Part shown: positions 24,017 to 44,789 of the stretch, piece after piece | Numbering within the stretch: the stretch's first letter is position 1 | Layout of the letters: every line of letters begins with the position of its first letter | DNA from: Terebella lapidaria | Taxonomy: Eukaryota > Annelida > Polychaeta > Terebellida > Terebellidae | Length of the DNA: 64,000 nt | Reading direction: 5' to 3' | Assembly (NCBI GenBank): GCA_949152475.1 | Contig: OX424568.1 | Coordinates: 26,821,667 to 26,885,666, forward strand | Translations under genes and position numbers: made by a program | Notes under the pieces: model-generated | What the model was told of the DNA's origin: nothing | The model's database searches: none | Seen by the model: only the letters and a program-made list of their open reading frames with translations

Positions 24017-26923
24017 TCACGACATGCCCGACCACCGATGTAGGTAGTTACCCCAGCCAGCCTTCTTGGCTGCCGAGGCGTTCGGTGAAGTGGCACCAGT
24101 CGCAGTTGGTGGTTCTTCGCCTGTGTTGGGGAGAATAACCGGGCGTCAGTACCGGTAAGTATTGGCACATGTGCTTGGCTTCAGTTTCTTCTTGTTTCAT
24201 TGCGTAATAAAATGCTATGATATATATAAAAATGATTACAATTCCGCAGTTGGTAATGAAGAATCAAGGTACAATTCCCTGGCATTTCTTAATTAATAAA
24301 TCTTAGTGAAAATTTGCCAATTGCTTATTCCACTGGAAACCCCCCCCCCAAAAAATTCACATGTAATATTGCGATGAATCGGACAATGTTCAAGTGAGGT
24401 TCTCTCTGAAACTGACCCTCTGCGATTGCGCTGAGTTTATCTTTCTCCTCCGGGCTGAACTTGAGCATGGTTGTCAGGACTGGAATCAACTGCATTCGCT
24501 CATCTCCGCTCTTCAAGGTCATGAACTGCCAGACAGAATCAATACACTGACAACTCGTTTCTGAACTTAGATACCACTGTAGATATTGACCTGTTTACTT
24601 GGAAATGACACTGAGGCTTGCAACAAAAGTTCCCGAAACATTCATATAAATCTTAACTCCTGTTTTGGGGTATTTTACAGGTATCTTATCTTCATACCCC
24701 AATGTTCCTGAGAGCATAACTTGTAGACAATACTGCTCCGACAGTTTACCTTGTAAAATATGTTATATAGCTACTATAACTTCTATAGCTATCAACTACA
24801 TTACCTTGTAGACAATGTTCTTGAGGTACTCCATGTTTGAGATGCTTTTATCTCGGACTTGGTTTCGCTCCATTCTGCGGATCTCTTCCTTAAGGATCTT
24901 AGCCTGCTCTGTCAGCCTCATCACTGTCGCCTCACTCTCGTTTAGAAGCTGTTGTCATGGCAACAAAAAGCAGCACATGAACATGATTTCCACGAATTAT
25001 TTGACATAAAGAGTTTTTAGTTGTTTTCGGAAAGTTTCAAAAGCTGTATAAGGTACTCAATTTTACAGATAGGACGCTAGAATATACTTGTACATGTATA
25101 TCGGTATTACTGAAGAACATATATAATACTTTTCGCAGCACAGTTCCATTGAAAATACCCCAAGGTTCCCTTCTCTAACCTCTGTAAGATGTTCAATTCG
25201 TCGCTCTGCAGTCAGTAGGTTATTGTGGAGAGCGCTGTTATCTTCCAAGTCTACAGTTTTCAGGCCTGGAAAAAACGTCAACAGTCGTGAGCAAATGCAG
25301 AAATTCACAATGCTACTTGCAATATTGGGGAAAGCGAACACGGTATAATTTAGTGTGTTTATATTTGTTTATTTTCGCAGCACTCACTGGCCGTGTCATC
25401 TTGGGGCTGCGTCGTTATCAGTTGTTCAAACGGCATCATCGACGGCAAACTGGAACTTGTGCTCTGTGCGGTAGAAAATTGTCGCAGTGTTGCCATGGAT
25501 ACCAAAATACAGCACTTGTCAGTAAACAATTTCTGCACTGATCAATTGAATAAATCCCATATTATTATTTTATATGAATGCAATAATAAAATCGATGCGA
25601 TTAAAGTTCAGATAACAATCTTTGATACACTAAGTAGGCAAAGAGACATTTAGAAGGATAGAATTCATACTTACAACACTTCTGATGCAAACGTTCGGCT
25701 CGGGATCTGTGTGCTCCATGCCCTGGATAGGGAATAGAAATTGGAATAACTTTTTGGGAAAACGGCACCGATATGTATGTAATATTGTGCTTCATGATAC
25801 ACAGTCATTAGTATTCATATGCTGCAATATGCAAAATAGCTATCATTTGAATATTAAATGCATTTACATAAATATACGGATATCTTAAACAATAATACAA
25901 ATTTTTCCATATTGTACATTGCTCAACTTCATCTTGGTTGGCATTTCATCATCCAAGTTTTGGTATTGGAATAGGTTGTGTGCTATGAAACCCATGATTC
26001 CTTGTTTATCTACGGATGATGATTCCATTTGATATATTGATCAATTCCATGAACAAAAGTCCAAAACAGCTCCTCTTCCTTGATGCAAATTGTGCGTTGA
26101 TAATGATCAACTGAAATGAACTAGCCAAATAGGTTTCCAAATTCTCGTGAACATTGTTCACTTTATGCAAGCTATGCTGCAAATCCAATTCATTCATAAA
26201 ATTTCTTTCTCTCTATTTACCCAGCTAACATCACAAATAATGTTTGCAACCCCCGAGCAAGTCATTGATATCAATACCCAATTATTGAACCCTCTCATAG
26301 GCTGAAATACTGGCAACTTTGTGTAATAAAAGAAAACATTTCCATCGATTTGATATCAATAATCAATACACAGCTGTTCAATACTGCCATTTAATGGTTT
26401 ATTATTGCAGTTTAGTGATATATCTGTGAAAACGGGGCAGACATATTGTGTTTTTATAATGGGCCTGTAACCCTCAATCTGTGATCATATTTCAGCTTCG
26501 GATTTCATACTGTGCTGCAAGGGATATAACAAATGGGATATATTTTCAAAGTACAAATGGTTAATTTAGCATCATGTCGGTTATACTCTTAACTTTTTTA
26601 TAAATTAGCTCATGCCACAGAAAACTGTTACCATAAGATACATGTATTACGATACTGTCCAAATCCTCATAATCGAGTAAAACTTCCCACCCACTTCCCC
26701 GTCACAACTGTACCTCTCCTGACTGCCGTTCCTCGTGTCTAACATCCAGCGCCACCTGGCTGTTGTCGAGTGTACCGCCCCCTTCACGGTCGGGGGTCAT
26801 CTCGCGCAGCAGGTTCTGCACGCGCGTCTGGAGTGTCGCGTTCTCCCGCTCAGCAAGGTCCAGTTGGCGCTGGTACGTCTCGATATTCCGGTGGTGTTCT
26901 TCCTGTAGAACTCGGATCTGGTC
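24017..26923 (-). CDS. GCC2: GCC2 exons 21-27 with GRIP domain
   Basis: Exons: 26714-26923, 25675-25722, 25388-25463, 25180-25265, 24805-24948, 24417-24525, 24017-24120. After DQIRVLQEEHHRNIETYQRQ and a looser linker, exon 25 gives LLNESEATVM and EEIRRMERNQVRDKS. The GRIP domain follows at about residues 1991-2036: NMEYLKNIVYK, then SGDERMQLIPVLTTMLKFSP and EEKDKLSAIAE. The Tyr of MEYLKN, which contacts Arl1 in golgin-245, is kept. The last exon encodes WGNYLHRWSGMS, matching the human C-terminus WASYLHSWSGLR. Confidence 0.93.
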
Positions 26924-29900
26924 CTGAGGGAATGGGGGGAGGGGGGGGGGGGGGGTGGGAGTGTGGCGATTATCAATTCAATTTCTTTTCACTTGTTTGA
27001 TTTTTTATTTGTCTTTGATATCATTCTGCTATTCACGAAGGATAAACTTGTATTCATTCACTTTGGAAAACCAATAATTTGTTTTCAAGTTCATTATGTT
27101 TTAGTACATGTATTTCGATCATTGATCCCATTCGTAAACTAGACACTCTCCGGTTGCCGACAACCCCATAGCTGTATCCCCCTTATGCCACATCATCCTT
27201 GTCACCCAAAACTGGTGAATCAGACAAATTTATGAACCTTCCTAATGTCCCAATACTGATGATTCGAATATCCACAGTTGCCAACACTGAATAGGTTCTC
27301 ACTTTCGTAACAAATATTTTATGTCACCATCAACATTTCTTAAAATCGAATCAGAAACGCGAATTGTAGGGCACAGAGGAGAAGAAGCAGCAGCAATTTT
27401 GGGATTTGAATCTATATCTACCATTCCAATACTGTGAATCAACTAATTTTGACAGACGATTTATTTGGTGGATTTCGTGGTAGAGGCAAAACCGCCAAAT
27501 TAACTAGATATATGTTAAGAAATATCTGGTTTTGAAACTGGCTGTTTTATGTTAATAAAACTAGTGTTATATACTATACTTACCTCCAAAACACATTACG
27601 GGTTATGGCTTATTAGCCTTACTGACATAGGAGTTTTCCATAGAGAGAACCCCATTTGGAAAATGGGCTAGACAATGAATTGTCCAAGCCACTAACCCAC
27701 GTGACCGGATGGTGACGTCATTCTCGTCGATTCTAGGAACCAACCAGAAGGAGTACGCGGGGCCGGCCGGGTGGGCACTCTGAATGTGTTTTGGAGGTAA
27801 GTATAGTATATAACACTAGTTTTATTAACATAAAACAGCCAGTTATATGCCTATATCTTACCTCCAAAACACATTACGGGTAAAATCAGAATAAAGATTG
27901 GAGGCGGGGTGCTCCAAAAAGAACTCTGACATAACCAAAAGCTCAACCCTAGGGCCTCAGTGAGGGACAGGGTGGGCTTTTCCCCTGAATGATTGGAGGA
28001 ACCAAAGGAGGGTGTCCTCAGGGTCACCAAAACATTTATGGTTTAACAATAGGGTAAGTAGAAAAAACCACTTACCTCCGAGTGTCGAGTGACTGGCTTC
28101 CGGTCATAAGTGACGTAACGTATGTACATGAGGATATGCCTTGCTGACGCAACTGAGTCACAATGCATACCGAACTAAGGAGTACGACCGTACTGACATA
28201 GGAGACCAATTTAACGGTAATCGGAACCGGAACTCGCAACACGGAACTTCAACATATGTACAAGAGGAACGTATGTACAAGATGGGCCACGTCATCCTCA
28301 AGGGGTGACGACGCTCCGAGCAGCTACCACGGGCCCGAGGTGGTAGCCCTCACTCCCCGTCCACGTCAGGTCTCTAAGGTAGAAAGACGTAAAGGTGTTA
28401 TGGGATTGCCATGAACATGCTTGCATGACCTGATCAAGTGGAACCCGTCCCATATATGCAAGAGAGGCCGCCATGGCCCGAACATCATGGGCGCGTACCT
28501 TGAACGAACAGGCGGAGTCCTGCTCGGCCAAATCGTAACAGGTGCGGATACATTTTTGAATCCAGGATGAGATGGTAGCGGAACGTATGTCCCGTTGGAA
28601 TTTCAACTGATGTGAAATGAACAACAGTCGCTTGCCAGCCCGGAGACCTTTTGTCCGCTTAAGGTACAAGCGCAAAGCCCGCAACGGGCACAGGAGACAG
28701 TCTTCCTCGAGATTCGGGCCTACAGACGCCGACAAAGCCGGAATCGTGAAGGCCAGCGGGGGAGACGACGCCAGCTGGGTTTTCGCCAGGAAAGAAGGGA
28801 TGACCTGTAAGGAGACCTGGAGGCCATCCTCTCGCCATCTAACTTTTGAGAAATCCAAGGCGTGGATTTCGCTCCTGCGACGTCCAGAAGCCAGAGCCAG
28901 CAGGAAGACTGTCTTCCAAGTAAGGAACTTTAGGGGGGCGGAAGACATAGGTTCAAAGGGAGCAGACGCCAAACGGTTCAAAACCAGGGATAGATCCCAC
29001 TCCGGAACTGAGTTACGGGTAAGCGGACGTTCAACTTTAAAGTTATTGAGCAAGGCGCTCAGATCTTGATCCTCGCCGAGATTGATGCCAGTGTGAGACA
29101 AAATAGTCTTGGCTAGAGCGGTCCTATAACCCGCTAATGTCGAAGGGGCCGCACCCGCTTGGAATTTCTCCAAGAGAAAATCAGCTACTGTCTGAGCAGA
29201 GGCGTTGAATGGATCAACCTGCCTGCCATCGCACCAAGCAGCGAAGACTCGCCATTTAGACTCATAGACTCCCAAGGATGAGTTTCTATTAGGGCGGGCG
29301 ATCCTACTGGACACTTCTGAAGAAAATCCCTTTGCGCGAAGGGATCGCTGGACAGAAGCCACGCGTGGAGGTTCAGGCTCGCGGGTCGGCTGTGAAACAC
29401 CTGCGCCCGGGGCTGTTTGAGAAGGTCGTCCCGAGGGGGTAGGGCCACTGGTTGATCTACCAACAGGCCCAGAAGTTCTGGGAACCAAGGCCGCTGTGGC
29501 TGGTATGGAGCGACCAGGAGAATACGGCATGTGTGGGACCTGATCTTGGCCAAAACCTTGGGCAGCAGAATCGCCGGAGGGTATGCATACCCGAACAGGC
29601 CGTCCCAATCCGTGGACAACGCGTCGATGGACATCGCAAGGGGGTCCGGAAGCGGAGAGACAAACACTGGAAGCTTGTTGTTCCACCTGGTCGCGAAGAG
29701 ATCCACTGTAGGGCGGTCCCACCTGAGGCACAGGGAACTGAACACCTGAGGATGGAGAGACCACTCTGTTGGCTGGATCTGCCCCCTGCGTGACAGCTGG
29801 TCCGCCAACACATTCAACCGGCCCGGGATGTGACGTGCACGCAAGTGAATGTTCCGAGACCGGCACCACAGAAGAAGCGTCGTGGCCTGCCGACACAGGG

Positions 29901-32900
29901 TAACGGACTTTGTACCCCCCTGTTTGTTTATGTAGGCCACGACAGTGGAGTTGTCCGTGGACACCAGGACAGCACGACCAGCACACTCCTCCTCCCAGTG
30001 GGCCAGGGCCAGGGAAACCGCCTCCAACTCTAAGCGGTTGATGTGCCACGAGCTCTCGGGCTCTGTCCACACCCCAGACACTTCCTTGAAGTCCAGGTGT
30101 GCCCCCCAGCCCTCCGTAGAGGCATCCGTAAATAGATGCTTGGAGGGAGGAGGCTGACGGAAGGGTGAGCCCCGAGTGAGGTTGGTAGCGGACATCCACC
30201 ACAGTATGGACGCCTTCCCTGCTGGAGAAAGGACGACCGGTTGCTGAGGGCAATCCGTGGCTGCGATCCACTGGGAGCGAAGGTCGATCTGTAACTCCCG
30301 CATGTGGAGTCGACCGTAAGGAACTAACTTCTCGGTTGCTGCCAGCAACCCGAGCATCGACTGCCAGACCTGTGCTGACTGACTGGGCTCGTCCAAGAAT
30401 CTGCGGAGTAAGGACCGTATCTTTGACAGCCGCTCCTCCGTGGGAAAAACCATACCCAGCTGTGTCTTGTACCGGTACCCGACAAACACGAAGTCCTGGG
30501 CCGGCGTTAGCTCTGATTTCTGGAGATTGACCAACAAACCCATGCGTTTGCACAAGTCCAGGACCCACTGTAAGTGCCGAGTCAGAACCTCGGGAGACTG
30601 GTGATAGACAATCCAGTCGTCTAGGTACTGGTAGAGGAGGATGCCCTCCTTGTGGGCGAGTATCTGTAACTCTTTCACCACCATTGTGAAGATCCATGGA
30701 GCCGGGGACAGTCCGAATGGCAGGGCACGGAACTGATACACGGTGCCCCGGTGCACGAAGCGCAGATATTTGCGGGAGACCGGATGAATCGGGATGTGAA
30801 AGAACGCGTCCTTCAGATCCAGGGAGACGACCCAAGAGTTCTTTGGAAGGGACAAGCGGATCGATTCCGCCGTCTCCATGGCGAACTTGGGGGTCTTGAC
30901 ATGGCGGTTTAGAGCGGACAGGTCGATCACGGGGCGCCACCCGCCTGAGCTCTTGGGAGTCAAGAACAGGATACTGTAGTAACCTGGAGAGGAAATTCCT
31001 ACTTTTTCGAGCGCGTTTTTGGCCAGCATATCGGCGATCTCGAGCGAGAGTGCTAACCGTTTGGCGTGAGCTCCGGGAAGTGAAAAGGGAATAGGCTCGG
31101 TAGCCAGTGCAGGACGCTGACTGAACTGGATGCGAAAGCCCCTGCGAAGGACCGACACGATCCACGGGCTGGCTCCGAGTGTCTGCCACTCTTGCCAATA
31201 ATTTGTTAGACGGGCGCCCACAGGCTCGCTTGAATTTTGGAACGAGGGTGGGACAGCCCGAGGTATCGCAGGGTCCATCGCAGGGAGCTGATTCTGTGAA
31301 GTACTCACCTGCTGCGGGGGCGGAGGACTTCTTCTCCCCTGCTGGCTTGGGCTTGCCCTTGTGCTTTGACTTCTTGGTCGCTTTACTGCCGGCAGGGGCC
31401 CTCTGAAAGGGCTTCTTCTCCTTCTTCTCCTTGGACTTGGTCGGTGGAGGCTTGGAGGAAGAGGGGGCGTACGCCTGAAGAGGGGAGGCCAGACGCTTGG
31501 CGATCGTCTCCGTGAGACGCTTACTGGTCGAGACCGACTCCTCCTGACGGGCCAGCTCACGAGCTGCAGGCAGCTTAGACTCTAGGCCGGCGAAGAGAGG
31601 TGGAGGAGAGGTAAGAGCAGCCCCTGCCTCTGGATCTACGAGCGGGGCACAGCGAAGCTCCGTCACCAAGGCCGGGGGAAGCTTGAACCTAGCTTGGCCT
31701 AGAAAATCGTCTCTCCTCAGTAAGTGGAGGACCCACTCCACGTACGTGGACTGCTCCATCCGGTGGGCTGACGCCAAGTCACAAGACTCCAGGAGTTGGG
31801 ACGCCGAACGGAGGTGGTCCCCCAGGGACACTAGCTGAGACGGTGGGGATTCCAGGTCTTCCAGCGCTGTCAAGGCAGACTGTAGTTGGCGGTAAGCCGC
31901 AGTACGGAACCAGTCCTCCAGGGAGGACACACAGGTGGCGGCGCGGACGGCGTGGTTCAGGGAGAGTAAGGTCTCCGGCTGAAGGGTCACGGGGCGAGCC
32001 TTGTCGCCAAGGTACTGGGCCGCCGCCTCGGGGAATACCGCTGGCTTATCCAGGTAGTCCGGGTTGGACGGGAGGTAGTCCTTCTTGTGGAAAGGAGGCC
32101 GACGGGGAAACTTCCCCAACTCTGTTTTCCCCTGGTCCAGTGTCTCACAACGGCGCCGGGAAAACTCCTCGCGGAGCCCGTCCGGGATAGGGAGACCCCG
32201 TCGAGGCTGACGTTCCGGGGAGCGCTGGGATGCCAGCAGCGACGTCGGACGCTTAGACACTGTGGGCTTCGGCTCAGCTGGAAAGAGGGTGGGCTCCAAG
32301 GTCGAACGCACGAGGTCGAGCTTGTGATCAAAGGAAAGGTCCTCCTCTCCCTCCTCACTGTCGGCCGGCTCGGCGTCAAGACGAGAGCGCTTGTCGCTGG
32401 GAGCCACGGAAGCCACGACGGAAGCTGGGCGCTTCCTGGAAACTGGAGCCAGTGGCGCCGAAGGAGTAGGCACATCCTGCCCGCACGCAAGCGACTCCTC
32501 CCCAGAGTCCTCATCAGACTCCTCCCCGAAGATCTCCGCAGGCAACTGCTGGGGAGGCTCCAAGGCCTGAGTATGCCGTAAGGCATCTGACGTGGGGGGA
32601 AGGGACACACCCGCGCGGGCGTCCAGGGCTGCCAAAACAGCCGTAACAAGGCTAGCCACATCCATCGCTGGGGCCGCTGGGGGAACTCCAGACGGAGAGG
32701 GGGGCCGAGAGACCACCGAAGAAGGACCTGGCAAGGAAGGCTGGGCCACCGAGCTAGTCGTCACGGTGAGAGAGGCCGAAGAGGCAGTCAACGCCGATGA
32801 ACTCTGCAAAGAGAAAGAAGCGGTAGAATTCTCTATAGAAGCAGCTGTCAACAGCATGCACTCAAGGCTCGGACCCCGTAGGACGGGGGCCGAGCCCCGA

Positions 32901-35900
32901 GCGGGCAACGGCAGGGCAGAAACAGCACTGAGAGTCGAGTGCCGGATCCGCACCCCGGGGCCCGGACTCCGTGGCACGGGGTCCGGGCCCCGTCGTACGG
33001 AGCCCGGCCCCCGTGACACGGGGCCCGGCCCCCGAAGCACGGGGGCCGGCCTCTGCGACTGAGGCTGTGCCAAGCGCAGAATACCCGAAGGGTCGGGGTC
33101 CGGACCCCGTACGGGGTCCGGACTCCGCGCCATCACACTAACCAGAGCACCGCTACGACGGGCCACACAAAGCCCCTGGACCGAAGTCCGGGGACCGGAC
33201 CCCGTACGGGGTCCGGACCCCGAGGGCCGGGAACCGAAAAACGCGGGAGAACTGGCCAGAAAAGGCGCGGGTGCAGCTGCAGGAACCTGTTCGCCGATAA
33301 CAGCGGAGGTGACACGCGCAAACAGGATCCCCGCTGACGGTACATGAAATACACAGTGAATTGACTCCCGGGGCGTGCCACCGTGGGTCGAGTGCGACTC
33401 TCCCACCAGCAGATCACCCGCGGAACAAAACAAAGAGGAAGGGGAAGAAAACTTAGCTTCTAGGCAAACCAGGGTACGATCCAGCTTGCCCAGCAGGGCA
33501 GAAGTCTTCCTCTCCTGACGGCGGCGACGCTTGGCCGACGACGCGGAAGATGAAGAGGACGGGGCTGGAGACACTTGACGGGACAACTTGTCTCTCCGTG
33601 CGAGAACAGCTCCAAGAACCTGCCCCCACTCCTCCCGCGAACGGTCCGCACACAAACCGCACGTAAGTTGATCCGTATGCACCGGGTCCTGGCACGCAAT
33701 ACACTCTGAGTGTACTTCCCACGACGGAAGCTGCTGCCCGCACTGAGCACAGCGGCGCATCACGGCAAGAGGGGAGTCCGCGCTCCAAACACAAAACGAA
33801 GTCCGAGGAGCGGAAACTATCCACGCGAAGCACGCCAAAAGAGCGAGGAAAAGAAATATCCAAAAAGGCATGCAAAGAAAGTGTTCGTAAGACGATGAAA
33901 ACTAAAAAATTCGCAAAGTTATGTCAGCAAGGCAAATCCAATGTGGTAGAGCAGCCATAGGAGACGAGAATGACGTCACCATCCGGTCACGTGGGTTAGT
34001 GGCTTGGACAATTCATTGTCTAGCCCATTTTCCAAATGGGGTTCTCTCTATGGAGAACTCCTATGTCAGTAAGGCTAATAAGCCATAACCCGTAATGTGT
34101 TTTGGAGGTAAGATATAGGCATATAACCGCAAAATTAAATCTCCACCAATGGGCTCACAGCCGCCGAATTTAATAGTCGCCAAAATTAATCTTTTGACAA
34201 TACTCTTCGTGATGAAATTTTCCATTCTTTACAAAAATACTCCTACTACATGATCATGAAAATCAACATTTCCAACTTGTCCTGCAATTCCAACAAAATT
34301 GACATATTTAGTGGGTAAAGGAGTCACATTTTGTCGGAAGCACACAGCCATACCTTGAATGTGTGTGTCAGGCTGTCATTCTGTAGTGTCAGCTGTTTGA
34401 TGGTCTCGACGTGCTCAGAACTACTGGCCGACCTCTCAGCATGCAGGGAATCCAACCTGGGAATGACAGAATACAGCCACTTAGCTTCTTACTCTAGCAG
34501 AATATCAACCTACTATCTTCAAGAACCTTTTGAAGGACCTATCTCTGGACTGACATATTTCAGTGTACCAATCAGTTTTCAATACGGCTGGTAAGTCATG
34601 TTACGTTACGCTGTGATTCTGGTGACACATTTTGTGTCACTGGAGTAGTCTGAATTCTACTGACATTGAACAAAAGGTGTATGTCCGTTTGTCACCAGAA
34701 TCACACCATACCAGGTCTATATTTCATATATTTATACTCCATTTAAATGATCAAATGAGTTTACACATAAATGAAGACTTAATACATTAAGACTCACCGT
34801 TCCTTCCAGGTCTGTTCTTTGCTCTGTAGATCGTCCAGTACTCGTGTGTACCGAGTCTGTAACCGCTCGAGTTCGTCGTGCAGAGCCTCCTTCTCGTTCT
34901 GCACGGCTATATGCTGGGCACTGGCGGGAAAAAGTGGCACTTCAAACAACAGGAATATAACGTGGACTCAGCATGTGTTTTATGGAGTGCGACTTCAGGT
35001 TTGTCCACTGGAAATTTGTTTTGTTAGGTTTAAAGATCAACAAAGAGAAAATCTTGTGCCTAAGACCATCTCTTGCAAGAAAATCATCCACAAGGTCAGG
35101 GAATGAGCGAGTCCTCTGCGATTTAAATAAACTTACAAACTTATTCAAGGCACAACACCAGTGACTCATGATTACATTTTTTTCGACACAACAAACAACT
35201 TTCATGCGCAGATTTTCCTGCAAGCATGTCACCATGGTTACTCACTGTGTTTCCTGGTATTTCAGTCTCAGTTGATCGAGTGATTTCTGGAGTCGCTCTC
35301 TGGAAATAACATATTTGTGTAGTCCATAAGGCTACTTTGATCATGTTTCATATACATTGTAGAGAGATGCTGATTGAAAGGAATTTGAATATGTAGATAA
35401 GAAATTTACAACCGCTGACACTTTTATTGACATAAAACCTTACTTTTCTTGTTTTTCCTGTTCGAGGGACACTTCCTCATGGGTTTTTGTTTTCTGCTGC
35501 TTGAGAACACTGTGAACTCGAACCTGTGACAAAACCAGAAGCATTTTACAGCAAGCAGACACATAAACAGAGGATTCGTTGCTTTGAGCAGCCATTTGGC
35601 AAAAAACTACTACATGTATATAGGTAACACGGAAGCATCTAAAACACTAAATCATCTGTCATTGGTTCATTGATGTAGATCCGAGATCGATACGAAGAAA
35701 CGCAGTACATCCATCTGAACCCACATACCTTATAGCCCTCGTATTCGGCCATGATGGTTTTCTGCTCGGCTTGTGCGAGTTCCAAGTCATGCTCGAGGGA
35801 CTGTACACGTGCTTCCAGTGTCCGAGCTGACCGCTGGTGCGTATCGGAGATGTTACGACTTCGCTCTGTCAGTTTCTGATTGTCAGCAACCAGGCCAGCG

Positions 35901-41900: not shown

Positions 41901-44789
41901 CCTGTGATTGGCTCTTAGCTGCTGCAAGCTCTGCCTCGAGTTGTGACTTTTCCGTGAGAACGTGATCGAGATCGCCCGTCAAGGCGCCGAGTTTGGAGAC
42001 CATCTCTTCATGTCGACTCTCGGATTCCTTGTGTCTCTGTTCCCAGTCTGCACACTTGAGCTGCAGAGTCTACACAGAGATAACATATATACTCATTTAT
42101 ATGTGCTATATAAGAGATTAATATTGCTATTTTTATTATTACTGTAAAACGACTACTATTGGCTGACAATTTATTTGGAAAAAACGCCAAATTAAATCGT
42201 CCGCCAAATTAACTAGATATATGTTAAGATATATATGTGATTCTGAAACCGCCAAATTAAATCTCCGCCAAATAACATAGGGCTCACAACCACCGAAGTT
42301 AATAGCCACCAAAATTAGTCGTTTTACAGTAATGTACAGGACTGAATTGATTCTAACAATGTACATACGTACACGCGTGGCCACATTCAGCTAACTAACG
42401 AGAATCATTGCACGCCATTTTAGGAATATTCTGATACTTTTGTTACAACTCTGATCTGAAGTTGTATTGTTAAACAAAACATTCCAATTGATTGAGAAGT
42501 TCATAGCATGTAAATTGGTTATAAATATATCATCTCAAACATTACAAATCACGTGCGATTCACTGATTTACATCCAAACTGGCCACACCCGCTGTCACAC
42601 ATTAACACACCTCGATAGTTTCGTCCAGCTGTTCCTTCTTGGCGAGAGCATGGTCCAGCTGTTCCCGCAGCTGGTTTTCCCCGTCAGATCGACTCTGTTT
42701 CAGCTGCTTAACTTGAGCCATCATCGCGTCTCTCGCATCCGTCAGAACTGAAACCTGCTCCTCCAAATCCTAGCCAGAAATATAACATGATCATAAGAAT
42801 CACTTATTTTTCAAGACTTCGTAAATTATGAGAGAAGGAGGTATGTTGGTTTTTCAGGACTTTATGCTATTCTCAGAATAGTTTTTTGATACAATTCATC
42901 AATGAAAACAGTTTGTTACAATTCCGCAATGACTATACATATATCAACAGAATTGAACAATCACATGATCGGAAATTATCCGAAGTATCTAAAAGTTTCA
43001 TTGCAGTGAAAAAGAGTTCAAACAATCAGCTGAAGGGATATTTACAATATTTACAAAAGTGAACATGATGAACAATGGCAGCGAAAGAAACTCAACAATA
43101 CCCCACACCTTATTTTTCTTCTGAAGAACATCATATTCCTGTTGCATACATTGAAAAGAGGATGTTAACGTGGCATCCTTCATTTGCATACATTCAACCT
43201 GTTCCGTAAGTTGCTGCAAGAAAGAAGATCACGCCTGTACAAATCTACACAACCACAAGTCCACAACCACATCAAAACCAACACCCGGACATCGGTCTGG
43301 TTCAGTGCATGTTTAACCAAATGTATGATTATTTAATACACAAATCATTGTGAACAAACAAAATGTTAATGAAACCCCACCACAAATCAACTGTTTGGCC
43401 AAACAAACGCCTAGCTTCCCGCCCACAAAACAAAAACCTCAATCTTGTTTGTAAACAATGCCTCCACTACAGACCCGGATTTTGCCCGCGGATGCCTCTT
43501 GTTGTTCCTGTACGGTGTTGTAAGCAGCAAGCACCTCGTCTTTCTCTGCCTGTAGGGTCGAAAGGTCGTCTTCTAGCAGCTACAACAGGAAAATTATATT
43601 ATTTAGTATTTACAAGCGTGAATTATGAAATATGTGACTGTGAATCAGCGAACCAGGTGTTGGTTCGAGAACGATGATGGCGACTGTGGCAAACAGTTCT
43701 CCCGCGCTATGACATCACACGATAACAAAAAGTGTCGAGGGCCAGCAATGTCAAAACCAATACATAAAACTTCATACATTCATTTGTTTGAAGGGAAAAA
43801 CCACACTATGCTGAATCTGGTACACCATTGCATACTAGTACACGGAAAGAACATGAAAGGTAATGGTACAGGTATCTATTAGTTGTAAATATGATCCACA
43901 TAAGCAGCCTACCTTTACTCTGTCACCGCTGTCACCACCTCCTGAAGACTGGTTCTTCAAGGATGCATTCTCTTTGGCAAGCTCTGAAATTAAGAAAACT
44001 CAAAACTGCATATCTGTCCCACATTTCAACATATCCATGATGAGCGAATTATATGTTTATGACATGCTTGAAATGCAGTAACGTTTTGATATTGCTAACA
44101 TATCTTAAATTTTTTTTTACATCATTCACCTTTACAGTTTGAACCCTTTTTTAACAAAAACTTCTTGTCACATTTCCTGTTCAAATTATCAGGACAAATC
44201 ATGCATTCGGACGCCAACTTCATGAATACTGTTTAGCTTCAATCCAGATATAGATGCTTCAATACACAATGTGTAAATGAATAGGCCCCTACCGTCACAT
44301 TTTGTTTTGGTTTTCTGGAGAACAATGAGCTGCCGTTTGATGTATTTGACGAGATCCTCTCGGGGCAGTGTTTCCAGCTGAAATAAAAAGAAAAGATTGT
44401 GATAATGAAGTTGGTCATTTGATCCTTTTCTCTTTTCTTTTAAATAATCGAATAGATCTACTCAAAAATATGTTGAGTTTTCATTTCAAATTATTTGGTT
44501 CTTTATTTTCAAATCATTGCAGTCACCCAATTATCTTGACCACATGGGTTTATCAAAGAAACCAAAAAAATTATTTTCATGAGCTAAGTGAGAAACACAA
44601 GTTGCAGAACAACTGCAACTGAAAATCGTACACTTCTATGAGGCAAACTGACAGTTACTGACCTATACTGTTGGAAGACCCTGCCATATGACTATGTTTA
44701 CGCACCTTAGATTTGGGCGTGGCACTGCCGGGCGTTGAGGTTCCGTCCGCGTGTCCTCCGTCGGGACTTCTTGGCGAGTCGTCACTCAT
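24017..44789 (-). CDS. GCC2: GRIP and coiled-coil domain-containing protein 2 (GCC185), 27 exons
   Basis: A peripheral trans-Golgi tether: a long parallel coiled coil held to the membrane by a C-terminal GRIP domain. In vertebrates it binds Rab6/Arl1 and other Rabs and captures endosome-to-Golgi carriers. The start is the ATG at 44789 (MSDDSPRSP); the human counterpart has the same acidic/TPG head followed by SKLETLPKEDLIKF. All 27 exons keep phase and sum to 6,213 nt, predicting 2,070 aa (human 1,684). Homology is clear at both ends and in the distal rod: NNMMDLEIADYERTVKTL, LKQMLVKTKKDLADAKK, the GRIP domain and the tail WGNYLHRWSGM. The middle is heptad repeats. The gene converges with RNASEH2B. 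Introns carry a MITE (intron 6) and a DIRS element (intron 20). Confidence 0.94.
27582..27728. repeat. DIRS inverted terminal repeat, left arm
   Basis: Nearly perfect complement of 33963-34109. It contains the palindromic-looking GACAATGAATTGTC and a TGACGTCA (CRE-type) box. A further 43 bp outside the arm (27539-27581) are unique to this end, matching the unequal outer extensions known in DIRS elements. Confidence 0.9.
27783..27891. repeat. DIRS internal complementary region
   Basis: This segment is the head-to-tail complement of both element ends. Its left half complements the left end and its right half complements the right end, meeting at CAGCCAGTTATATGCC, where the shared AAC of the junction is recreated. 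It is the template thought to join the termini into a circle during DIRS replication. Its position after the recombinase end is normal for the family. Confidence 0.92.
28298..33871 (-). CDS. DIRS Gag-like and tyrosine recombinase frame
   Basis: One frame open for 1,857 codons. The first part has a cysteine-rich start (CAQCGQQLP, then CIACQ and CGLC), followed by Ser/Pro/Arg-rich GC-repeat sequence typical of DIRS Gag. The last 340 residues are a tyrosine recombinase, with the catalytic Arg in LASGRRRSEIHAL, the HDVRAMAAS box and a final ACSWQSHNTFTSFYLRDL carrying the Tyr. Between them the frame passes over the RT frame, an overlap the family is known to use. How the two products are made here is not visible. 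Confidence 0.85.
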   Translation of the reverse strand: MPFWIFLFLALLACFAWIVSAPRTSFCVWSADSPLAVMRRCAQCGQQLPSWEVHSECIACQDPVHTDQLTCGLCADRSREEWGQVLGAVLARRDKLSRQVSPAPSSSSSASSAKRRRRQERKTSALLGKLDRTLVCLEAKFSSPSSLFCSAGDLLVGESHSTHGGTPRESIHCVFHVPSAGILFARVTSAVIGEQVPAAAPAPFLASSPAFFGSRPSGSGPRTGSGPRTSVQGLCVARRSGALVSVMARSPDPVRGPDPDPSGILRLAQPQSQRPAPVLRGPGPVSRGPGSVRRGPDPVPRSPGPGVRIRHSTLSAVSALPLPARGSAPVLRGPSLECMLLTAASIENSTASFSLQSSSALTASSASLTVTTSSVAQPSLPGPSSVVSRPPSPSGVPPAAPAMDVASLVTAVLAALDARAGVSLPPTSDALRHTQALEPPQQLPAEIFGEESDEDSGEESLACGQDVPTPSAPLAPVSRKRPASVVASVAPSDKRSRLDAEPADSEEGEEDLSFDHKLDLVRSTLEPTLFPAEPKPTVSKRPTSLLASQRSPERQPRRGLPIPDGLREEFSRRRCETLDQGKTELGKFPRRPPFHKKDYLPSNPDYLDKPAVFPEAAAQYLGDKARPVTLQPETLLSLNHAVRAATCVSSLEDWFRTAAYRQLQSALTALEDLESPPSQLVSLGDHLRSASQLLESCDLASAHRMEQSTYVEWVLHLLRRDDFLGQARFKLPPALVTELRCAPLVDPEAGAALTSPPPLFAGLESKLPAARELARQEESVSTSKRLTETIAKRLASPLQAYAPSSSKPPPTKSKEKKEKKPFQRAPAGSKATKKSKHKGKPKPAGEKKSSAPAAGEYFTESAPCDGPCDTSGCPTLVPKFKRACGRPSNKLLARVADTRSQPVDRVGPSQGLSHPVQSASCTGYRAYSLFTSRSSRQTVSTLARDRRYAGQKRARKSRNFLSRLLQYPVLDSQELRRVAPRDRPVRSKPPCQDPQVRHGDGGIDPLVPSKELLGRLPGSEGRVLSHPDSSGLPQISALRAPGHRVSVPCPAIRTVPGSMDLHNGGERVTDTRPQGGHPPLPVPRRLDCLSPVSRGSDSALTVGPGLVQTHGFVGQSPEIRANAGPGLRVCRVPVQDTAGYGFSHGGAAVKDTVLTPQILGRAQSVSTGLAVDARVAGSNREVSSLRSTPHAGVTDRPSLPVDRSHGLPSATGRPFSSREGVHTVVDVRYQPHSGLTLPSASSLQASIYGCLYGGLGGTPGLQGSVWGVDRARELVAHQPLRVGGGFPGPGPLGGGVCWSCCPGVHGQLHCRGLHKQTGGYKVRYPVSAGHDASSVVPVSEHSLACTSHPGPVECVGGPAVTQGADPANRVVSPSSGVQFPVPQVGPPYSGSLRDQVEQQASSVCLSASGPPCDVHRRVVHGLGRPVRVCIPSGDSAAQGFGQDQVPHMPYSPGRSIPATAALVPRTSGPVGRSTSGPTPSGRPSQTAPGAGVSQPTREPEPPRVASVQRSLRAKGFSSEVSSRIARPNRNSSLGVYESKWRVFAAWCDGRQVDPFNASAQTVADFLLEKFQAGAAPSTLAGYRTALAKTILSHTGINLGEDQDLSALLNNFKVERPLTRNSVPEWDLSLVLNRLASAPFEPMSSAPLKFLTWKTVFLLALASGRRRSEIHALDFSKVRWREDGLQVSLQVIPSFLAKTQLASSPPLAFTIPALSASVGPNLEEDCLLCPLRALRLYLKRTKGLRAGKRLLFISHQLKFQRDIRSATISSWIQKCIRTCYDLAEQDSACSFKVRAHDVRAMAASLAYMGRVPLDQVMQACSWQSHNTFTSFYLRDLTWTGSEGYHLGPVVAARSVVTP
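29185..31560 (-). CDS. DIRS reverse transcriptase, RNase H and methyltransferase-like frame
   Basis: A 791-codon frame overlapping the recombinase frame. RT: YYSILFLTPKSSGGWRPVID, then VSLDLKDAFFHIPIHP (motif A), ALPFGLSPAPWIFT and LYQYLDDWIVY (catalytic YLDD). RNase H: LFTDASTEGWGAHLD, then INRLELEAVSLAL and VSTDNSTVVAYINKQGG. The end, VDLFATRWNNKLPVFVSP and YAYPPAILLP, matches the methyltransferase-like region of DIRS elements. This order is diagnostic of the family. Confidence 0.92.
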   Translation of the reverse strand: MSWPVRRSRSRPVSVSRRRSPSVWPPLFRRTPPLPPSLHRPSPRRRRRRSPFRGPLPAVKRPRSQSTRASPSQQGRRSPPPPQQVSTSQNQLPAMDPAIPRAVPPSFQNSSEPVGARLTNYWQEWQTLGASPWIVSVLRRGFRIQFSQRPALATEPIPFSLPGAHAKRLALSLEIADMLAKNALEKVGISSPGYYSILFLTPKSSGGWRPVIDLSALNRHVKTPKFAMETAESIRLSLPKNSWVVSLDLKDAFFHIPIHPVSRKYLRFVHRGTVYQFRALPFGLSPAPWIFTMVVKELQILAHKEGILLYQYLDDWIVYHQSPEVLTRHLQWVLDLCKRMGLLVNLQKSELTPAQDFVFVGYRYKTQLGMVFPTEERLSKIRSLLRRFLDEPSQSAQVWQSMLGLLAATEKLVPYGRLHMRELQIDLRSQWIAATDCPQQPVVLSPAGKASILWWMSATNLTRGSPFRQPPPSKHLFTDASTEGWGAHLDFKEVSGVWTEPESSWHINRLELEAVSLALAHWEEECAGRAVLVSTDNSTVVAYINKQGGTKSVTLCRQATTLLLWCRSRNIHLRARHIPGRLNVLADQLSRRGQIQPTEWSLHPQVFSSLCLRWDRPTVDLFATRWNNKLPVFVSPLPDPLAMSIDALSTDWDGLFGYAYPPAILLPKVLAKIRSHTCRILLVAPYQPQRPWFPELLGLLVDQPVALPPRDDLLKQPRAQVFHSRPASLNLHAWLLSSDPFAQRDFLQKCPVGSPALIETHPWESMSLNGESSLLGAMAGRLIHSTPLLRQ
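34354..38620 (-). CDS. GCC2: GCC2 exons 8-20 (distal rod)
   Basis: Exons: 38492-38620, 38189-38320, 37773-37961, 37442-37528, 37213-37338, 36809-36971, 36447-36547, 36205-36282, 35729-35908, 35444-35523, 35246-35299, 34798-34920, 34354-34456. Exons 13-17 hold the best-conserved rod sequence: MMDLEIADYER, KQMLVKTKKDLADAKK, HQRSARTLEARVQSLEHD and YKVRVHSVLKQQK, all with direct counterparts in human GCC2. Phases alternate but join without a stop. Exon 20 ends LTLQNDSLTHTFK, and the intron after it holds the DIRS insertion. Confidence 0.9.
38788..42069 (-). CDS. GCC2: GCC2 exon 7, a 3,282-nt coiled-coil exon
   Basis: A single uninterrupted exon of exactly 1,094 codons. It begins TLQLKCADWEQRHKESESRH after an acceptor at 42070 and ends VESTQKSE before the GTATAA donor. 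Its composition is dominated by Glu, Leu, Lys, Ser and Gln in heptads. A short internal duplication, AELAAAKSQSQAL twice, is visible near 41850-41945. The long plus-strand open frames in this interval are mirror images of the codon bias and are not genes. Most of the extra length over human GCC2 is here. Confidence 0.92.
42142..42329. mobile_element. MITE, copy A (uninterrupted) in GCC2 intron 6
   Basis: A 188-bp element flanked by TA (42140-42141 and 42330-42331) with ends CTGTAAAACGACTA and the complement TAGTCGTTTTACAG. No coding capacity. TA duplication and short ends suggest mobilisation by a Tc1/mariner-type transposase. It serves as the empty-site comparison for the DIRS insertion. Confidence 0.88.
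42611..44789 (-). CDS. GCC2: GCC2 exons 1-6 (N-terminal head and first coiled coil)
   Basis: Exons: 44706-44789, 44293-44377, 43913-43983, 43475-43579, 43109-43213, 42611-42769. Exon 1 is the Ser/Pro/Gly-rich head, and exon 2 is LETLPREDLVKYIKRQLIVL, the signature N-terminal GCC2 segment. Exon 3 ends with a flexible SSGGGDSGD linker. Exons 4-6 start the coiled coil (LLEDDLSTLQAEKDEVLAAY, then DLEEQVSVL). The donor of exon 4 (CGG/GTCTGT) is weak and is set mainly by phase; the other junctions are good consensus sites. Confidence 0.88.

Follow-up and report, generated by a model that had tools for sequence, protein, structure and literature searches.

We analysed 64,000 nucleotides of the annelid Terebella lapidaria (assembly GCA_949152475.1, contig OX424568.1, positions 26,821,667 to 26,885,666; this whole stretch is referred to as the window), in which a DIRS1-like retrotransposon interrupts a miniature inverted-repeat transposable element (MITE). 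The retrotransposon is one copy of a family that we call family A. It lies on the minus strand at positions 27539-34127 and measures 6,589 bp including a terminal AAC. It was recognised by its repeats, its open reading frames and its reverse transcriptase/RNase H, and its limits were set from other copies and from empty sites. In the family A copies read, the triplet at the right junction was AAC and came with the element, whereas the triplet at the left junction varied and was host DNA, and no target sequence was duplicated. The family A target is a palindromic AAW-N6-WTT; a triplet matching the circle junction is not required. We consider it probable, at roughly 0.6, that this is a recently active DIRS1-like element which integrates by a polar, one-strand tyrosine-recombinase exchange.

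Junctions, empty sites and target

The search space was the window's own assembly (761.6 Mb), which holds many near-identical copies of the element, and the genome searches scored the best 40 of 503, 382, 452, 1,350, 667 and 2,434 candidates. One set of copies was picked by the left end and comprised the window copy and 20 others, one of which (L038) had no right end in its stretch. Further copies were picked by the internal complementary region (ICR; 27783-27881 in the window, minus strand), which is the exact reverse complement of the right end, AAC and the left end joined together (99/99 bases); the earlier note on this DNA had already placed a joined AAC there. From 99 exact ICR joints, 37 had already been extracted, 60 were added and 2 were omitted, and the resulting 97 gave 85 recognised left ends. 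Twelve of the 60 added stretches had no left end in the exact search: in L096, L112, L122, L123, L128 and L144 TGGCTG is accompanied by small changes or stands at the very edge of the stretch, and in L091, L101, L104, L105, L106 and L121 the expected place holds no left end. L096 and L144 re-entered among the 49 copies for which both junctions were paired. One of these 49, L037, has another copy next to it on the left, and omitting it leaves 48; in two pairs, C12:8.48 and C1:23.04, the ends are ~10 kb apart and were matched by position alone. One right-end query contained AAC, which introduces a bias; free of it are only the left-end-picked copies (20/20) and a second family, family B (20/20).

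For the left-end-picked copies we detected AAC on the right in 20/20 cases (the window and 19 of the 20 others) together with varying left triplets, and in the same copies with the window the ICR triplet was GTT in 21/21. All left junctions consisted of a host triplet followed by the element's TGGCTG (85/85 recognised, 79 unique flanks). In the window these six bases, which stand between AAC and TTT in the circle joint, occupy 27539-27544 on the plus strand and are preceded by the host triplet, an AAC of the MITE at 27536-27538 (plus strand), identified as host DNA by its variability among copies and by the uninterrupted MITE copies. The 79 unique left flanks ended in AAT (39), AAA (25), AAC (8), GAA (3), ACA (2), TAT (1) and AGC (1), where one of the eight AAC flanks is a head-to-tail joint. 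The right junctions read AAC and then host bases in 52/52 unique cases (34125-34127 on the plus strand in the window copy), and TGGCTG followed the AAC in 0/52. Where both junctions were available AAC stood on the right in 49/49 copies; 46 of them had a left triplet other than AAC and in none of these 46 were the two triplets equal. As the right AAC is constant and the left triplet variable, AAC is the element's own right end and the left triplet is host DNA. As the two were never equal in 46/46 informative pairs, there is no target duplication.

A 3-bp target-site duplication by a cut-and-fill integrase or transposase was first suggested by the AAC/AAC of the window, which would then be the duplicate, and the window copy alone has that look. 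We rejected it because of the 46 unequal pairs and the contradiction with the uninterrupted sites, and it retains practically no probability. A fixed AAC requirement at both ends was also rejected, as only 8/79 left flanks have AAC. The earlier note had described an AAC at each junction; this is correct for the window copy and not a property of the element. The comparison of other copies that it had proposed found no duplicated target (46/46 informative pairs) and different terminal bases on the left in 71/79 flanks, which refutes an AAC at each junction and leaves the absence of duplication unrefuted.

Some copies had unusual surroundings. L037 (C13:3823839) consists of two copies head to tail with a perfect AAC joint. 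L097-L099 on C2, with left ends at 23511224, 23513984 and 23516744, share an identical left flank at a spacing of 2,760 bp and most likely represent a segmental tandem duplication rather than three insertions. The left flank of L132 resembles a family A left end broken at AAA (left side read).

We compared the rejoined host flanks, minus the element's AAC, with uninterrupted relatives at four loci and the alignments were ungapped at the junction in each. None of these relatives is an allele; all are further copies of the repeats concerned. The first locus is the MITE in the window. L036 and L040 lie in the repeat that forms the second (8 relatives, triplet AAT) and L031 in the one that forms the third (triplet AAA; 6 relatives, two of them identical across the junction), and the fourth is the ICR of the second DIRS family, hit by L035 (one relative, triplet AAA). 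At these four loci 0 host bases were lost, gained or duplicated, and the element with its right-end AAC was the only addition. A base loss at the L036/L040 junction, where TT stands one base early, was considered and rejected since the uninterrupted relatives share this spacing; the 2-base gap of L036 against its relatives sits 11 bases past the junction. L035 is a family A copy within a family B ICR at AAA^ACTTCC-TAT, with the NTT half only partial.

For the window site the DIRS element does lie inside a MITE, as the earlier note had claimed. MITE copy A is intact at 42138-42333 (plus strand; 42142-42329 in that note) with 25-nt terminal inverted repeats of 92% identity, as seen from repeat analysis and the alignment to copy B. 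Copy B is a diverged second copy, interrupted between 27538 and 34128, whose left part (27440-27538, start approximate) and right part (34128-34205, end approximate), both on the plus strand, were delimited by alignment to copy A and other uninterrupted MITE copies. The alignment of the rejoined halves to copy A, which the note had suggested, is ungapped at the split point 27538/34128 (TTTTGAAAC/CGCAAAATT versus TTCTGAAACCGCCAAATT), and the halves also align with 6 further uninterrupted MITE copies in the genome. A genome search with the rejoined halves returned 39 hits spanning the junction with 77-85% identity among the best 40 of 1,350 candidates; the remaining one was the window's own left half of copy B. 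The empty MITE site contains one AAC and the filled site two, so one AAC arrived with the element and the statement that none was gained is wrong. Both flanks of the window copy are AAC and hence this site alone cannot exclude a 3-bp target duplication. It was taken at first as proof within the window that nothing is duplicated; that conclusion stands, carried by the 46 pairs and the four loci, and the window copy by itself is ambiguous. The AAC/AAC is a coincidence of the host triplet, and the few copies that by chance landed behind a host AAC tell the least about the junctions.

According to the published DIRS model (PMC3266345; here and below articles are cited for individual passages and tables), a double-stranded circle recombines via its 3-bp junction with an identical genomic triplet, which leaves AAC on both sides. 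The window copy fits this exactly and the ICR and the inverted repeats are as required. However, AAC stands on the left in only 8/79 family A flanks, and in family B the corresponding AAT in 5/20. If the triplet were the overlap, mismatched pairs should resolve both ways, whereas 46/46 resolved one way. Later mutation of the left triplets could rescue the model, but the AAT and AAA at uninterrupted sites argue against such mutation. We regard an identical-triplet circle as extremely improbable for this element.

The host bases at the family A sites were far from random. On the left we observed A at position -3 in 75/79 flanks, A at -2 in 76/79 and G at -1 in 0/79; on the right T at +8 in 50/52 and T at +9 in 47/52. 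The complete pattern AAN-N6-NTT occurred in 36/48 reconstructed sites compared to 36/1,344 other offsets in the same flanks (p ~1e-46). The insertion point in the target is AAW^N6, and in the window the host right half-site following the target consensus (N6 then NTT) is CGCAAA-ATT at 34128-34136 (plus strand). The joint as read from the ICR, AAC-TGGCTG-TTT, has the same layout as the AAW-N6-WTT target.

Family B, whose reverse transcriptase is 66% identical to that of family A (in the copy from which the family B ends were read), was located with patterns omitting the triplet and the six bases. We examined 20 copies, the first listed on contigs C1 and C2 among 426 and 283 pattern hits. Family B repeats the polarity of family A in 20/20 copies: the right triplet was AAT and the left six bases AGGAAG in all 20, with AAA (12), AAT (5), AAC (1), GAA (1) and GAT (1) as left triplets. 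The six bases past the crossover were not fixed in the search, and neither among the family B copies nor among the ICR-picked left ends of family A were they found swapped. An array of ~31-bp repeats (L151:40-1190) adjoins a family B copy.

Proposed strand exchange

The ICR retains AAC though most copies have another left-flanking triplet. Since its AAC is independent of the left flank, it is the ICR, rather than the sequence flanking the integrated copy, that supplies the ends and the joint of the next complementary DNA (cDNA), which agrees with the classical DIRS model where the ICR is the template of the ends. The crossover falls at AAC^TGGCTG in the joint; in the family A target it falls at AAW^N6. 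In every junction read it has left the host triplet and TGGCTG on the left and the element's AAC and host bases on the right. A two-strand exchange over a 3-bp or 6-bp overlap would instead turn each junction into heteroduplex, and the opposite type should then be inherited in about half of the copies. This opposite assignment is absent from all junctions read, from which we infer that only one strand was exchanged; the remaining strand would be settled by replication or repair. In the simplest reading of these sequences a one-strand exchange at 5'-AAC^TGGCTG would account for every junction read. Footprints of this kind are left by established one-strand systems, namely CTXphi, integrons and the bacterial SE elements. 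The proteins are coded on the minus strand, thus the window's plus strand equals the first-strand cDNA, and it is this strand, antisense to the genes, that would be exchanged.

The polarity could also come from a two-strand exchange with fully strand-biased repair, which weighs against a one-strand exchange. In such a reaction the tyrosine recombinase would form a 6-bp heteroduplex as in Tn916 and mismatch repair would always keep the same strand. In the family A target as in the joint, AAW and WTT enclose a centre of 6 bp, and recombinase sites are described as inverted repeats 6 to 8 bp apart (PMC3212892). Repair would, however, need to make the same choice in 85/85 left junctions, 52/52 right junctions and 20/20 family B copies, and we therefore consider this explanation unlikely.

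As to the substrate, the joint and the ICR can fold into one 99-bp stem with a 185-nt loop. A single-stranded cDNA whose joined or abutting ends pair with its own ICR in this stem would possess a double-stranded attachment site, and by analogy the stem suggests a substrate similar to that of the phage CTXphi. The ICR would then have two roles, templating the ends and supplying the second strand of the attachment site, and the crossover AAC^TGGCTG would fall exactly where the two cDNA ends meet on the ICR. We put forward only tentatively, and with more doubt than confidence, that DIRS elements may integrate as single-stranded first-strand cDNA, with the ends joined or abutting on the ICR, and that only this strand is exchanged. 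A 2020 paper by Malicki names linear, single-stranded cDNA intermediates for DIRS in its title, which fits a single-stranded substrate, and this work and Boesler 2014 reportedly describe single-stranded DIRS-1 DNA and an essential ICR. If both ends of a linear cDNA were annealed to the ICR, they would meet precisely at AAC^TGGCTG. PMC5633606 cites Boesler 2014 for a circular cDNA in a strain lacking agnA.

A linear cDNA ending in an ICR-copied AAC might also enter breaks without any strand exchange by the recombinase, which would merely choose or open the site. This would yield one fixed terminal triplet, no duplication and the polarity without extra assumption, and linear, single-stranded DIRS intermediates are what the 2020 title announces. 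Entry into breaks should leave deletions or fillers, though, and there are none in the joined flanks at the four loci. Unpaired ends would not explain why the target mirrors the joint (AAW-N6-WTT versus AAC-TGGCTG-TTT), and the head-to-tail pair L037 with its perfect AAC joint also speaks against this possibility, which we judge highly unlikely.

Several further points weigh against a one-strand exchange of first-strand cDNA. The hairpin is possible on either strand, so the stem alone does not select first-strand cDNA. The bacterial SE elements leave the same footprint yet have double-stranded nicked circles, and polarity is thus no proof of a single-stranded substrate. The word "linear", part of the 2020 title, conflicts with a closed circle. 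For family A 12/48 reconstructed sites fit AAN-N6-NTT incompletely. Family B lacks the NTT half-site (T in 9/20 at +8 and 8/20 at +9), and the palindromic target is therefore shown for family A only; its A at +1 in 19/20 copies makes the family B crossover ambiguous by one base. The Pfam match of the recombinase to Phage_integrase is weak (E 0.0053, below the cut-off), a PDB sequence search with the recombinase found no relative and its structure prediction reached a pLDDT of only 38. The older DIRS model assumes a double-stranded circle (PMC5633606). Dictyostelium DIRS-1, unlike family A, is described as entering existing DIRS-1 copies with no evident preference for a sequence (PMC5633606).

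Anatomy of the element and its host gene

The element is an ordinary DIRS1-like retrotransposon. The repeat analysis identified a left inverted terminal repeat of 150 nt at 27579-27728 (plus strand), which is 99% complementary to the right one at 33963-34112 (minus strand). A Ngaro/PAT retrotransposon, with split direct repeats, was ruled out since the terminal repeats are inverted. An unbroken open frame of 1,857 aa (28298-33871, minus strand) comprises a gag-like part followed by a putative C-terminal tyrosine recombinase, as judged from the open reading frame listing, the weak Phage_integrase match and the motifs GRRRSEI at 1663, HDVRA at 1795 and FTSFY at 1827. We take the set R, H-x-x-R and Y to be the catalytic residues of a tyrosine recombinase. 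The family B copy L151 also carries HDVRA and FVSFY motifs. A 791-aa frame (29185-31560, minus strand) encodes reverse transcriptase and RNase H (RVT_1 4.7e-26; RT_RNaseH 1.4e-5) and lies wholly within the longer frame in a different reading frame. In Dictyostelium DIRS-1, gag and recombinase are on separate open reading frames (PMC4482531). We found no Pfam match for a methyltransferase-like domain 3' of RNase H, although one stretch may resemble such a domain, and an NCBIfam search gave no useful match. GC-rich, partly palindromic repeats of the CGGGGTCCGGACCCCG type occur at 32863-33240 within the gag-like coding part.

A search with the reverse transcriptase gave more than 70 matches of at least 98% identity among 150 scored of 8,137 candidates, many with an open frame of 798 aa. 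These near-identical matches with their open frames kept indicate that family A was recently active. Outside the element, a domain match marks a GRIP-domain exon of the host gene at 24433-24531 (minus strand), compatible with a GCC2-like gene.

Relation to known systems

The element shares reverse transcriptase/RNase H and inverted terminal repeats with DIRS1-like elements (DIRS1-2 of Dictyostelium; 28 annotated in PMC3266345), and likewise an ICR in which the ends are joined through a 3-bp junction; the tyrosine recombinase typical of these elements is putative here (motifs and the weak Pfam match). The circular junction AAC is also found in SkoDIRS2 and GaDIRS1/2 (PMC3266345 Table 3), and signatures at the ends, GTT or AA among them, had been noticed earlier (PMC9210276). 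The difference lies in the target: published DIRS are described as requiring an identical triplet (PMC3266345), whereas in this element the coding 5' end alone has a fixed triplet. In Table 3 of PMC3266345, 10/28 elements have unequal start and end triplets, 8 of them with a 3-bp junction. The junction equals the start triplet in 7 of these 8 and the end triplet in one, AcasDIRS1, the only one of the 8 with a left but no right extension. Two of the 7, AmDIRS2 and NveDIRS6b, are printed with the end AAT, identical to their junction, which may be a slip of strand. The table hints at agreement with the polarity seen here; the Background passages and section 10 of the article contain no remark on a polarity of start and end.

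CTXphi integration at dif has a 6-bp centre and two close inverted site copies that pair into a hairpin, and one strand pair is exchanged and resolved by replication or repair (PMC3089051). It differs in using the host's XerC/XerD and a single-stranded phage genome (PMC3089051), whereas a retroelement with its own putative recombinase is at work here. The integron reaction attC x attI is similarly asymmetric and requires replicative resolution (PMC4792948). Integrons differ in being carriers of bacterial gene cassettes. Their attC sites are folded hairpins with extrahelical bases. We regard the likeness to CTXphi and integrons as one of mechanism only, not of membership. In the SE elements one border receives the 6 bp of the joint and the other border those of the target; these elements are bacterial, have two recombinases and no RNA stage, and their intermediates were found to be double-stranded and nicked (PMC10214605). 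The SE circle retains the six bases of its former left flank (PMC10214605); in DIRS the ICR is the source from which the joint is copied.

We found no description of a polar footprint or a palindromic target for DIRS in the open-access papers searched, although an earlier notice is possible, and none there that links DIRS with integrons and strand exchange. Single-stranded DIRS cDNA had already been proposed; what is added here is the fitting genome footprint together with the strand and the point of exchange. The DIRS integration mechanism was called "experimentally not fully proven" in a 2017 review (PMC5633606), and the entry of tyrosine-recombinase retrotransposons has so far been modelled from few elements. 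Many young copies and uninterrupted targets in one genome turn such a model into a countable footprint, which tells the bases of the element from those of the host and shows that the target can do without an identical triplet and that strand exchange has a polar outcome. For annotation this gives a simple rule: in both families tested the triplet at the 3' end of an annotated DIRS element belongs to the host, and it should be excluded from the consensus. If single-stranded cDNA intermediates are real, the polar footprint would be their expected mark in the genome, and if it proves true, single-stranded integration of DIRS would be a eukaryotic counterpart of the single-strand integration of CTXphi and integrons.

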